From positions 1-48,113 of the IMG/VR virus record IMGVR_UViG_3300035210_000090: 48,113 nucleotides of DNA; one strand, 5' to 3'. The position numbers and the translations under genes are program-made. Below, piece by piece: positions 29,696 to 36,570 of this stretch (positions within the stretch are counted from its first letter, which is position 1; every line of letters begins with the position of its first letter). A model generated the notes under the pieces. The model was not told the origin of the DNA. It made no database searches and saw nothing but the letters and a program-made list of their open reading frames with translations. This DNA is from a virus.

Positions 29696-30781
29696 CTAGT
29701 CAATATCCAGTATCTCTGGCTCACCAAAGGCTTGCTTAGCTTCGTTAAGCATCTCTTGATCTGCTTGGGATAGCTTGCTGAGCATTGCAACATTACTTGT
29801 GCCTTGTGCTGTTTCTCTGTCTAGCATAGCCTGATACTGGACGAGTGCAAGGGAAAGCACACGCTCGTATCTAGCACGTGCAAGCAAACTAGGAAAGGTA
29901 CCAATAAGTCCTCCTTCTTTTGTGTGCACATTGCTCTTGGTAATTGAAGTTGCTTTAGCTTCTTGGAAGAATGCACAGACTTCTTGCAAGTCTGCCGCAC
30001 ATAAGCTTGTGAGTGATTGCGTGCGAAGCAGGCTTAGCATGTCTTTCCATGCTTGTGCAGTCTTAGGTGTAGGTTGAGATGGTTTGAGTACAGCTAGCCA
30101 TGCTGAAGCATTGCTGAGTGCATCTGCGATAGGAATGCTACGCGTGTTGCGTACTAGTGTGTTATGCGCTTCGCGCTGTGGTGCATCAATAGGCCGAGCA
30201 ATCTGTTCTAGTTTTTCTCGCTTAGCTTCTATGTGCTGTTTCCCTTCTAGTGTGCTATGTACTATGAGGTCTGCTATTCCTTGTGCAAGGAGTGCAACAG
30301 AAGTGTTTCTTGCTCCTGTGTCTTCTGTTCTACATGCTTCAATCAGTTCTTCTAGGCTTTGCTTCCTATCTGCAAAGGAAGCACACATGCAGGCTTTCCA
30401 TAGCACACAAAGTTGGGAGTGTGTTGTGTGCTCGCAGAGTGCTGCATTGGCTAATGCCAAGTGTTGCGCGGTAGTATGATGTAGCACAGGCAAGCAAGTA
30501 GCGCCATGTGCTGTTGTGCGTGCAGTAGTAAGGTGCCATAGAATGTCACCCACTACTACACATGACGGGATGCTATCCCTTTCGCTACTTGTGCCTTGTG
30601 CTAGCTTGAATCGAAGGCTCTGGAGTGCTTTGCTATCCTGCCATAGCGGTGCAAGGGCTACATGGGAAGTCTTGTATGAGCCTAGCGCGTATTGGGTAGC
30701 GTAGTGGGTTTCTAGTCCGGTACGTGGACAAAGCAGTGAATACTGAAATAGTGGAAGTGTGTTTTCGTTTGTTGCTTGCAT
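29696..30781 (-). CDS. Hypothetical protein, 361 aa
   Basis: ATG 30781 has AGGA 9 nt upstream. The protein is helical, with a His/Cys-scattered middle (about 85-140) and Leu-rich helices around residues 230-330; the C-terminal tail is acidic ('EPEILDID'). The scattered His and Cys do not form a standard zinc motif. It precedes the helicase gene and may be a replication partner or loader, but no family is recognisable. Confidence 0.75.
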   Translation of the reverse strand: MQATNENTLPLFQYSLLCPRTGLETHYATQYALGSYKTSHVALAPLWQDSKALQSLRFKLAQGTSSERDSIPSCVVVGDILWHLTTARTTAHGATCLPVLHHTTAQHLALANAALCEHTTHSQLCVLWKACMCASFADRKQSLEELIEACRTEDTGARNTSVALLAQGIADLIVHSTLEGKQHIEAKREKLEQIARPIDAPQREAHNTLVRNTRSIPIADALSNASAWLAVLKPSQPTPKTAQAWKDMLSLLRTQSLTSLCAADLQEVCAFFQEAKATSITKSNVHTKEGGLIGTFPSLLARARYERVLSLALVQYQAMLDRETAQGTSNVAMLSKLSQADQEMLNEAKQAFGEPEILDID

Positions 30782-31667: not shown

Positions 31668-31755
31668 GCTTGTGTTGCCTATGAGGTGTTGATATGGGCT
31701 AAGGTAGGCTAAAAAGTGCTGCCAGAGTGTGTCCGGTTTGCGCCGACACTTCCCG

Positions 31756-31785
31756 ATTGTCGCATAAAAGGAAATGTGGTGTCAA
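31756..31785 (-). promoter_or_regulatory. Leftward sigma70-like early promoter
   Basis: On the - strand a perfect TTGACA (31785-31780) is followed after 18 nt by GACAAT (31761-31756; 4/6 match to TATAAT). The spacer begins with CCACATTT, a copy of the repeated motif of this region, so a protein binding that motif would sit inside the promoter. The predicted start is near 31749, about 80 nt before the first leftward gene. Confidence 0.6.
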
Positions 31786-31913
31786 GTAGAAATGTGGATT
31801 TTTTCTGTGTATTTCCTGAAATTTCAACGATTTAAGAAAAAATGTGGAATTTTGTCGATTGTGGCTGTAATTTTCCCATTTATTTTTCTTCAGTCTTTTC
31901 ATTAGCTTGCGAG

Positions 31914-32014
31914 CGTGTCAAGCGTTAATTTGTCCACATTTGCCAAATGTTGCAAATATTGCCTGTTTTAGGGGTGCCCGAGTGCCCTTAGCCGCAAATA
32001 TTTCGCTTGACACG
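31914..32014. repeat. 11-bp inverted repeat around a paired ACATTT site
   Basis: CGTGTCAAGCG (31914-31924) and CGCTTGACACG (32004-32014) are exact reverse complements, 79 bp apart. Between them lie CCACATTT (31934) and AAATGTTGC (31945) in inverted orientation. Each arm contains TTGACA, facing outward from the left arm and inward from the right, but I find no convincing -10 for either. It may be an operator or an origin structure. Confidence 0.6.
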
Positions 32015-32300
32015 TCTTTTTTCTCGCCGATGTGCTTCCTTAGACCCTTGGCATAGCTTATTTTGCCTATCCTTAGCTATTTAGTACCTTCTTAGGCCCT
32101 GCCAGACCCTCTGCGAGCGCGCTATCTTTCCCCTCTGTATTTTTTATTAAAGGATGAAGAAAAAATTAAGATAAGAAAAGGCGCTAAAACACTATGTACA
32201 GCCTTAGTAAGAGAATACTAGAGAGCATCTGGCAAGGGTTTTTAGTACTAGCTTAGTAATATTGAGAGCGTGAAATCCGGTTTTAGAGTGCGTGGATATT

Positions 32301-32329
32301 AGAATCCCCCCGGACCCCCCCTTTTTTTG
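32301..32329. repeat. C-tract repeat, copy 1
   Basis: AGAATC, six C, GGA, seven C and seven T in a row. A near-identical copy in the same orientation is at 33069-33093, with shorter tracts. The complementary strand carries two runs of six to seven G separated by TCC. It sits at the left edge of the dense ACATTT cluster. Possible roles are a replication start, a packaging signal or a transcription element; none is shown. Confidence 0.85.
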
Positions 32330-32704
32330 CAATATCTGCCACATTTTGCTACATTTTGCTACATTTACAAAATAAGCTCTCTATGTTGTTGTTTCCATTA
32401 CATATTGCAACTGCTTCAAATGTGGATCCACATTGCTAGTGCTTCACAACATTTTGCGACATTTGCATTGAAAGTGCTCTATCCTTTTGTTTCGCTTAGC
32501 TTTTCAAATGTTGCAAACCAAATAACGACATTTAGCTGTGCTTTGCCACATCTGCAACATTTGCACGTTTTTGTTCGACATTTCTATTTTAGTCTCTCTT
32601 TAGCTTGTGTTGCTTGTGTTGCTTGCTGCTTAACTTTTTGTGTACGAATTGTCTTACGCGCTTGCTTGGGCTTTGTTGTATTTCCTTATTCGCCTCTATA
32701 TGGT

Positions 32705-32803
32705 CTAAGCATATGCTATTTTTCCTCTTGCAGCTTTACTATTGCTGCGTGTGCCATATACCAGCCTTGCTATTGCTGGTTGATGCTAAGCATATGTTAT
32801 TTT
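32705..32803. repeat. Imperfect 81-bp tandem repeat with CTAAGCATATG
   Basis: CTAAGCATATGCTATTTT (32705-32722) recurs as CTAAGCATATGTTATTTT (32786-32803), 81 bp later. A smaller shared word, CTATTGCTG, is found at about 32738 and 32770 between them. Nothing else is visible in the stretch 32584-33060 except T-rich, low-complexity sequence. Confidence 0.65.
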
Positions 32804-33068
32804 AGCTCTCGCATAGTTAATTTAACCAATTTAGTCCGCCCGTTTTGTTTTTTAACAAAATCGGCTTTTTCATGCCTTTTTCGCAAAACGTGTTTACTAA
32901 TCCTTAGCAATTTAGCTTGTACTATTGAGCTTGTGTTGTTCTTCCGTGATTACCAAAGTAGGCTTTGCCGAGTTCGTTCGCTTTTTCGCTTGACAGTTTG
33001 TCTTTCGCTGTGCTATTTGCGCACGCGCACGTTCTATTGATTGTTTTAGCTAGTTGCTTGTGTTTGTA

Positions 33069-33093
33069 AGAATCCCCCGGACCCCCCTTTTTT
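33069..33093. repeat. C-tract repeat, copy 2
   Basis: AGAATC with five C, GGA, six C and six T. Same orientation as the copy at 32301-32329, 768 bp away. The tracts differ by one base each, which suggests slippage in homopolymers (or sequencing error) on an otherwise conserved element. Confidence 0.85.
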
Positions 33094-33179
33094 CCCATGA
33101 CGCGCTCATGGTTATTTTCTTGTTTAGCCTGTCTTGCTAACCTTGTGCTGTTTTAGCCTTGTACTAGCTTAAAAAGGTG

Positions 33180-33208
33180 TTGACTCTGCTTTGTTGCGCG
33201 AGTAAGAT
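33180..33208 (+). promoter_or_regulatory. Rightward sigma70-like early promoter
   Basis: TTGACT (33180-33185, 5/6) and TAAGAT (33203-33208, 4/6) are separated by 17 bp. The predicted start is near 33215, leaving a leader of about 88 nt before the ATG at 33304. It points away from the leftward promoter at 31756-31785, so the 1.4 kb between them is the divergent control region. Confidence 0.6.
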
Positions 33209-33303
33209 ACTTTTCATGGTGATCTGCTTCTCGCAGGTTTCCAAGGTCCGGAAAATCTCCGGTATGCTTTTCCTCCTAATCCTTTGTTACGAGTATTTGA
33301 ATC

Positions 33304-35922: not shown

Positions 35923-36539
35923 GCAGCACACAAGCACACGACTACATGAGCCAACAATGGCTAGCACACTTCTTTGCAGGATGGAGAGTAGCATTTAGGA
36001 AGCTGAGCAGTACACAGCAGGTGGAAGGGATCGAATGGCTGCTAGCACAGCAGACACAAGCAGGGCTAGATGGGTATCCGAAGAACAATCTGGCACTAGA
36101 CAGATGGCAACACAGCTATGTGCTCGCCACCATTCACTGGGAAACTGGGACACGGATGCAGCCTTGCAGGGAAGCACCAAACAGCACAGAGGAATGGCGT
36201 GCGAAGCACTTACGCTACTGGCCATACTATGGACGAGGATATGTACAGATCACACACAAATACAACTACGCATATGCAAGGGAACTAACAGGACTAGACT
36301 GTGTCGAGCAACCGGATCTTGTGCTTGACAAACGCATAAGCTATATGCTATGTGTACATGGAATGCTGAGCGGGCAATATGGGAGACCGCTTGGCAGATA
36401 TGTGGATAAGCAAGCAGGACGCAAGCAATACACAGCAGCAAGGCAAAGTGTCAATGGCAAGGACAAGGCAGCTGAGATAGCAGCAATCGCAAGGGAATAT
36501 GAGAAGCTGCTAACGCAAGCGAGCACACTAGCACACTAG
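35919..36539 (+). CDS. Endolysin, GH19 chitinase-type muramidase, 206 aa
   Basis: GH19 signatures are visible: 'ATIHWETG' with the candidate catalytic Glu75, a second acidic residue at Glu85 ('PCREAP'), and 'YYGRGYVQITHKYNY' (103-117), the hallmark substrate-binding loop. It would cut the glycan strands of peptidoglycan. There is no signal peptide, so export depends on the holin. The start overlaps the holin stop. The last codons and the stop lie inside an 8-bp tandem repeat (36523-36570), so slippage would change the C-terminus after residue about 201. Confidence 0.92.
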   Translation: MSSTQAHDYMSQQWLAHFFAGWRVAFRKLSSTQQVEGIEWLLAQQTQAGLDGYPKNNLALDRWQHSYVLATIHWETGTRMQPCREAPNSTEEWRAKHLRYWPYYGRGYVQITHKYNYAYARELTGLDCVEQPDLVLDKRISYMLCVHGMLSGQYGRPLGRYVDKQAGRKQYTAARQSVNGKDKAAEIAAIAREYEKLLTQASTLAH

Positions 36540-36570
36540 CACACTAGCACACTAGCACACTAGCACACTA
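36523..36570. repeat. Six copies of the octamer GCACACTA
   Basis: Six exact head-to-tail copies run from 36523 to 36570 and contain the endolysin stop codon (36537-36539). The unit length is not a multiple of three, so gain or loss of a unit shifts the frame of the endolysin end. Confidence 0.95.

Follow-up and report, generated by a model that had tools for sequence, protein, structure and literature searches.

Paired inverted repeat arrays upstream of the helicase gene in PaP2/119X-like podophages: a candidate early operator and replication origin

Known repeat-based origins and control sites

Iteron origins, as known from lambda (ori with the O protein) and from the plasmids P1 (oriR), R6K (gamma) and RK2, are built from repeats of ~17-22 bp. 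In lambda OL/OR and other looping operators, two separated site clusters serve one protein, and one of them overlaps an early promoter. Satellite phage P4 combines two sets of short (~8-bp) repeats in both orientations within one replicon, and these sites, ori and crr (alpha protein), lie kilobases apart. Centromeres of the ParM type (parC) have a promoter flanked by two groups of 10-11-bp repeats, and the known parC clusters are direct repeats. Besides its role at the origin, an iteron initiator may repress its own promoter as well (PMC5043065). For the PaP2/119X group of phages, no origin or early-control site was found described in the open-access literature that we searched.

The window, i.e. 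the whole stretch of DNA analysed here, is a 48,113-bp IMG/VR virus record. Identical ends of 127 bp show the assembly to be circularly closed; the record is a complete podophage genome of 48 kb, for which a single, nearly identical sister contig was found. The leftward genes (31667 down to 14906) code for a Dda-like helicase, a Sak4-like ATPase, an exonuclease, a family A DNA polymerase and a primase, and the rightward genes (33304 across the record junction to 14767) for an endolysin, terminase, portal, capsid and very large structural proteins. This gene plan is common to the window, the PaP2/119X phages (Fredfastierviridae), Polaromonas phage Tiera and EBPR podovirus 3; of the PaP2/119X-type plan, the leftward helicase, polymerase and primase as well as the rightward terminase, portal, capsid and a very large structural protein are all present in the window. 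Its polymerase is nearest (28-31%) to those of EBPR podovirus 3, Tiera and the PaP2/119X group of Pseudomonas phages. Judged by these similarities, the window belongs to the same broad group as PaP2/119X, with identities of only 23-35% and no claim to same-family status in the ICTV sense.

Between its two gene arms, the window carries a dense cluster of the word ACATTT, which is probably one case of a layout that recurs across a poorly studied podophage family, with a different repeat word from phage to phage. This layout shares with iteron origins short repeats that are specific to the replicon, a helical phasing, here of 10 bp, an AT-rich neighbour, replication genes alongside and, near some of the elements, host DnaA boxes. 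However, the units here comprise 6-10 bp and form two mutually inverted arrays ~300 bp apart, the AT-rich core lies between the arrays with a purine/pyrimidine switch at its centre, and no O/Rep homologue was found. The lambda-type looping operators are alike in their two separated clusters, one of them at an early promoter, but here the second cluster is promoterless, the units are tandem and 6-10 bp long, and a symmetric AT-rich core lies in between. P4 resembles the element in its two sets of short repeats in both orientations and differs in the kilobase distance between them; no P4 alpha-type primase-helicase was recognised here. Short repeats in two groups beside a promoter are also typical of parC, which differs in its direct repeats, its short spacing and its parM/parR operon, no such operon being recognised here. 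Archaeal ORB origins (Orc1/Cdc6) differ as well, as we deal with bacterial viruses in which no Orc1/Cdc6 gene was recognised and with sites that are short tandem arrays of phage-specific words.

The ACATTT cluster of the window

The original prediction had described at least 14 motif copies within 0.8 kb, and this was borne out by 15 exact ACATTT words in 31772-32583 (Table 1). The window contains 25 copies of ACATTT/AAATGT in total, and with 10 copies spread over the other 47 kb, the motif is not as frequent elsewhere in the genome as it is here. The proposed comparison with shuffled sequence pointed in the same direction: whole-genome dinucleotide shuffles (n=300) held as many copies as the real sequence (mean 25.6), and never more than five of them in the densest 812-bp span, compared to 15 in the cluster. 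Shuffling the 1.6-kb region alone (n=1000) yielded at most six copies, and ACATTT forms the strongest hexamer cluster of the window (multiple-test E ~1.5e-14). The predicted 10-bp spacing is exact, with sites at 32341, 32351 and 32361 representing three head-to-tail units of TGCYACATTT (32337-32366), which were also detected by Tandem Repeats Finder. The repeat unit is better written as TGCNACATTT, of which three perfect 10-bp copies follow a degenerate one at 32328. A further pair with the same spacing is located at 32449/32459 (units 32445-32464), the expected 16-bp palindrome AATGTGGATCCACATT is present at 32419-32434, and single copies on either strand extend to 32583. The left set reads CCACATTT and surrounds a promoter-like sequence (31772-31845). 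Taken together, clustered and phased repeats lie beside an AT-rich region, as is typical of iteron origins.

Table 1. Features of the control region and its surroundings in the window, and DnaA-box clusters in relatives
Feature	Position	Strand	Remark
Dda/RecD-like helicase, 780 aa	27312..29654	-	anchor for the search of relatives
361-aa ORF immediately upstream of the helicase	29696..30781	-	position matches the conserved PaP2 gp56-like family; homology not detectable
Noncoding region between leftward (replication) and rightward (lysis/packaging/structural) arms	31668..33303	.	1.6 kb; from ORF list and module assignments
Leftward promoter-like TTGACA-18-GACAAT, TG ahead of -10	31756..31785	-	consensus match only
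Motif copy CCACATTT within the -35/-10 spacer	31772..31777	-	
Motif copy CCACATTT immediately upstream of -35	31790..31795	-	
Motif copy CCACATTT	31840..31845	-	
Left (helicase-side) inverted arm	31927..31962	-	GCAATATTTGCAACATTT at 31962-31945, plus facing CCACATTT at 31934-31941
Core between the inverted arms, 366 bp	31963..32328	.	pyrimidine-rich to ~32148, purine-rich beyond
AT-rich core centre, candidate unwinding element	32138..32183	.	AT peak is the family pattern, weak in the window
CCCCCCGGACCCCCCC run, inner side of the right array	32305..32320	+	second copy 33073-33087
Right array: TGCAATATC, then 10-bp units TGCCACATTT TGCTACATTT TGCTACATTT	32328..32366	+	
Seven more exact ACATTT	32418..32583	both orientations	32418-, 32449+, 32459+, 32506-, 32528+, 32557+, 32578+
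Degenerate ACATTT copy	32544	+	in the stretch 32418..32583, which includes the 16-bp palindrome
Rightward promoter-like TTGACT-17-TAAGAT ahead of the 354-aa gene	33180..33208	+	consensus match only
DnaA-box (TTATMCACA) clusters in relatives	L065 3039-3290, L072 3918-4137, L074 467-486, L082 515-547, L089 1531-1575, L097 5013-5045		

The position of a motif copy between the -35 and -10 boxes of a leftward promoter was also correctly predicted (TTGACA 31785-31780, motif 31777-31772, GACAAT 31761-31756). The promoter itself is a consensus match only, and the number of promoter-like matches in the noncoding region (four observed, 3.1 expected) is not above chance. The description of the 354-aa protein as an early protein is unsupported: its gene heads the rightward arm leading to endolysin, terminase, portal and capsid, and nothing marks it as early. 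For its suggested role as the binding protein, we found no detectable relative or domain and no link to the sites. A 237-aa ORF within the region (32327-33040) was judged non-coding, having a TTG start and a Cys/Phe/Leu-rich reading of T-rich DNA.

The inverted arms at 31945-31962 and 32329-32346 (GCAATATTTGCAACATTT and GCAATATCTGCCACATTT) are identical in 16 of 18 positions, lie 366 bp apart and represent the best inverted pair of the region, exceeding all 40 of 40 region shuffles. The strongest switch from pyrimidine to purine in the whole window genome (rank 1 of 131 blocks) is positioned 2 bp from the midpoint between the arms. The AT content by core thirds is 0.56/0.58/0.54, in contrast to a clear central peak in the family mean, and the palindrome score of the core is not significant (z 1.4). 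The pair is also weaker and more widely spaced than in most relatives, reaches a score of only 6 in the strict word-pair detector (threshold at least 8), and more than half of the motif copies fall outside both arms.

Outside the window, the only viral contigs with the 10-bp three-unit array were the sister contig and that of a Mu-like phage without relationship to the window, and among 85,000 genomes it was detected only at three cyanobacterial loci; the Mu-like and cyanobacterial matches were judged a coincidence among 10-bp tandem repeats. The Mu-like phage (L020, 2216-2261) has the 10-bp unit GCTACATTTT five times in tandem by its terminase genes, probably by coincidence, and its array is flanked by a similar poly-T stretch. 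A nucleotide search of the region against known phages gave no match above chance, and no Rfam match to a structured RNA exceeded chance either.

The region contains additional repeats. The original prediction had overlooked CCCCCGGACCCCCC at 32307 and 33074 (0 expected), which is part of a longer C-rich repeat, AGAATCCCCC(C)GGACCCCCC(C)TTTTTT, present twice at a distance of 768 bp (32302-32327 and 33070-33093; 0 expected by chance). A CCCCCCTCCCCCCGGACCC run resembling it lies near position 2090 of PaP2; the C-rich repeat itself was found in the sister contig only and was dismissed as a shared motif. A possible regulatory repeat, CTAAGCATATGYTATTTT, occurs at 32705-32732 and, 81 bp further, at 32786-32813, with a weaker third copy at 33135. 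At the end of the endolysin ORF (36522-36570), the 8-bp unit AGCACACT is found in six perfect copies without an inverted partner, and the sister contig has one more unit, so that copy number differs between strains.

Paired inverted arrays in relatives

The helicase served as anchor for collecting 80 loci of relatives from IMG/VR, and 39 of the 44 contigs tested encode the same family A polymerase. In several of these polymerases (e.g. G026, G023, G030, G034, G044), an in-frame TGA or other stop interrupts the matched stretch, which may reflect frameshifts, introns or stop-codon reassignment. Upstream of the Dda-like helicase gene that they share, many relatives have noncoding DNA with two inverted arrays of 6-10-bp repeats, mostly spaced by 215-385 bp and with an AT-rich core in between. 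The words differ by phage, with AATCAT in L092, GTTACATG in L071, TAGGATAA in L082, TACACA in L084 and ACAGAAAC in L067, and ATGCCAGA is common to L063, L065, L066 and L072. CAAGGT arrays 285-294 bp apart are present in PaP2, 119X, PaMx32, FBPa48, 20Aug470, TF17 and Neko, and across PaP2, 119X and the five other Jamesmcgillvirus phages the CAAGGT units and their copy number vary. In the PaP2 record, the array pair extends from 43649 across the record junction to 226. Tiera has a small version, with TGTTCG twice and then CGAACA twice.

Most arrays escaped an initial detector of tandem arrays, whose criteria were too strict, and a word-pair detector was used instead. A score of at least 8 was reached by 12 of 70 upstream regions, none of 62 downstream regions, which are mostly coding DNA, and none of 700 shuffles. 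With the same detector, a held-out set of 49 new loci, from which duplicates had been removed, gave 12/49 upstream, 0/44 downstream and 0/490 shuffles; as near-copies occur among the loci (e.g. L111/L112), not all counts are independent. This strict test is passed by only about one fifth to one quarter of the relatives. Fragmentary contigs are numerous among them, and many of the arrays may be decayed. Within noncoding DNA, inverted array pairs outnumber direct ones by 22 to 7.

The statistics on core and promoter are based on 21-22 pairs hand-picked from the detector output. Over 22 pairs, the AT content rises from 0.42 beside the arrays to 0.78 at the core centre, and the purine-minus-pyrimidine balance changes from about -0.3 to +0.2 across the centre, without such a skew in the outer flanks. 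The right half of the core is the more purine-rich one in 18 of 22 pairs, and the switch that is strongest in the entire locus falls within 15 bp of the midpoint in eight relatives; PaP2 has no purine switch. About half of the relatives' cores are long imperfect palindromes. A -35-like TTGAC adjoins the helicase-side array (array 2) in 16/21 pairs and the mirror array (array 1) in 0/21, the latter being positioned in several relatives just downstream of a 210-220-aa gene and not at a divergent promoter. Besides, perfect DnaA-box clusters were found in the same noncoding region of six of the 80 relatives, compared to none of 400 null loci, and the cluster of L082 sits inside the core, between the two arrays. 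What is shown is a real and recurring element of dyad symmetry, whose repeat words are specific to each phage and whose one side has the position of an operator at the early promoter.

Our search for the cognate protein centred on the conserved neighbours. The PaP2 gp56 family (phrog_15420; 340 aa, e.g. L066 6612-7655) is encoded between arrays and helicase, with 65 proteins from 64 loci. As an initiator, this family is unsupported, its AlphaFold models being good (pLDDT 86-87) and without a fold match in the PDB; the same holds true for a 216-aa family, considered as an SSB on account of its acidic C-terminal tail (pLDDT 86-87, no PDB fold match). Neither family showed any likeness to a known initiator or DNA-binding fold, and neither HMM nor hhalign comparisons supported the 361-aa and 354-aa proteins of the window as members. 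No cognate initiator emerged from Pfam, PHROGs or fold searches of conserved neighbours, no cognate repressor was recognised among the scanned proteins, and no protein tracked a shared word among the relatives.

Operator, origin and alternative readings

Our reading, held tentatively and at slightly below an even chance, is that the cluster may be the window's version of a family-wide mirror-symmetric control element that combines repression of the early operon with an origin in the core. We infer that the sites are bound by a protein, that this protein is phage-encoded, that it acts as a repressor and that the core serves as origin. The two inverted arrays, ~300 bp apart, would be occupied by a DNA-binding protein specific to each phage's word. 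At the helicase-side array, which lies at the outward early promoter, binding would repress or time the early operon, and binding at both arrays would bracket, and probably loop, the AT-rich core, where the strands would open and replication would start.

Regarding the predicted choice between an iteron origin and a multi-site operator, this interpretation was supported in part. From its sequence context, a role of the arrays as putative operator is well supported: sites overlap a promoter, as seen from TTGAC at array 2, on one side only (16/21 versus 0/21), and from the window's motif copy in the promoter-like -35/-10 spacer. An origin role is likely in view of the layout (inverted arrays, AT-rich core), the adjoining replication genes, the DnaA clusters in six relatives and the fact that Shea, a PaP2-like phage, lives as an episome, and the core is a candidate origin. 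As Shea persists in this form, it must replicate as an episome, and the paper on it describes no origin (PMC13348215). GC skew, proposed as a check, was uninformative, as the cumulative minimum lies within ~2.3 kb of the arrays in four of eight genomes and the maximum does so in two others. It is possible, and we regard this with more doubt, that the family represents a new origin layout: mirror arrays of 6-10 bp around an AT-rich quasi-palindromic core, served by a phage protein that changes fast and doubles as repressor of the early promoter, in a large podophage family with at least one episomal member.

An alternative is that the element serves as an operator only. The arrays would then be repressor sites at an early promoter, looping like lambda OL/OR and setting immunity or the carrier state, and replication would begin elsewhere. 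This fits the one-sided -35 association, the motif copies surrounding the window's leftward promoter, words that differ between phages in the manner of immunity specificities, and the superinfection resistance of Shea carrier cells (PMC13348215). We nevertheless consider it somewhat unlikely, since the mirror array lacks its own promoter and follows, in several relatives, the 210-220-aa gene, an AT-rich palindromic core and nearby DnaA boxes would be superfluous for an operator, and no repressor-like protein was recognised. A partition centromere of an episomal phage (parC/tubC type), with clustered 8-11-bp repeats flanking a promoter, would also explain short, helically spaced repeats in two clusters with an adjoining promoter and would suit the maintenance of Shea as an episome (PMC13348215). 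It is quite improbable, as the arrays are inverted and known parC clusters are direct repeats, and as neither the window nor PaP2 has a gene of the ParM, TubZ or ParA kind among its annotated or scanned proteins; in the window, no segregation operon adjoins the repeats.

That the mirror arrays mark the end of a linear genome or a packaging cut is suggested by the PaP2 and 119X records, which start ~55 bp from the midpoint of the array pair. It is highly improbable, as the records of FBPa48, PaMx32 and 20Aug470 from the same genus run through the element unbroken, and in most relatives the element lies within the early region, away from the terminase genes. Neutral drift of functionless tandem repeats in T-rich noncoding DNA is scarcely credible: other short tandem arrays do occur in the window (e.g. 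36522-36570), with copy numbers differing between the two sister contigs, but slippage is not expected to give inverted pairing at a narrow distance, recurrence in a held-out set and exact compositional centring. Least probable of all is binding by host DnaA or another host protein, with the CCACATTT copies as variant DnaA boxes. Several left copies do share a TCCACA core, a box at 31930 is one mismatch off TTATCCACA, and true DnaA-box clusters exist in six relatives. However, the window's region has no perfect TTATMCACA box and only one with at most one mismatch, no more than elsewhere, the three 10-bp units (TGCYACATTT) are not DnaA boxes, and the word is entirely different between phages.

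In this context, phages of the PaP2/119X group infect Pseudomonas aeruginosa, and one of them is maintained as a non-integrating episome. A compact element with a recurring layout, now placed in the cultured phages PaP2, 119X, PaMx32 and FBPa48, offers a target for mapping the origin, the repressor and the carrier state. That phages otherwise alike have different words points to a specificity system comparable to iteron incompatibility or to repressor immunity, and such a system would predict which phages can co-occupy a cell.
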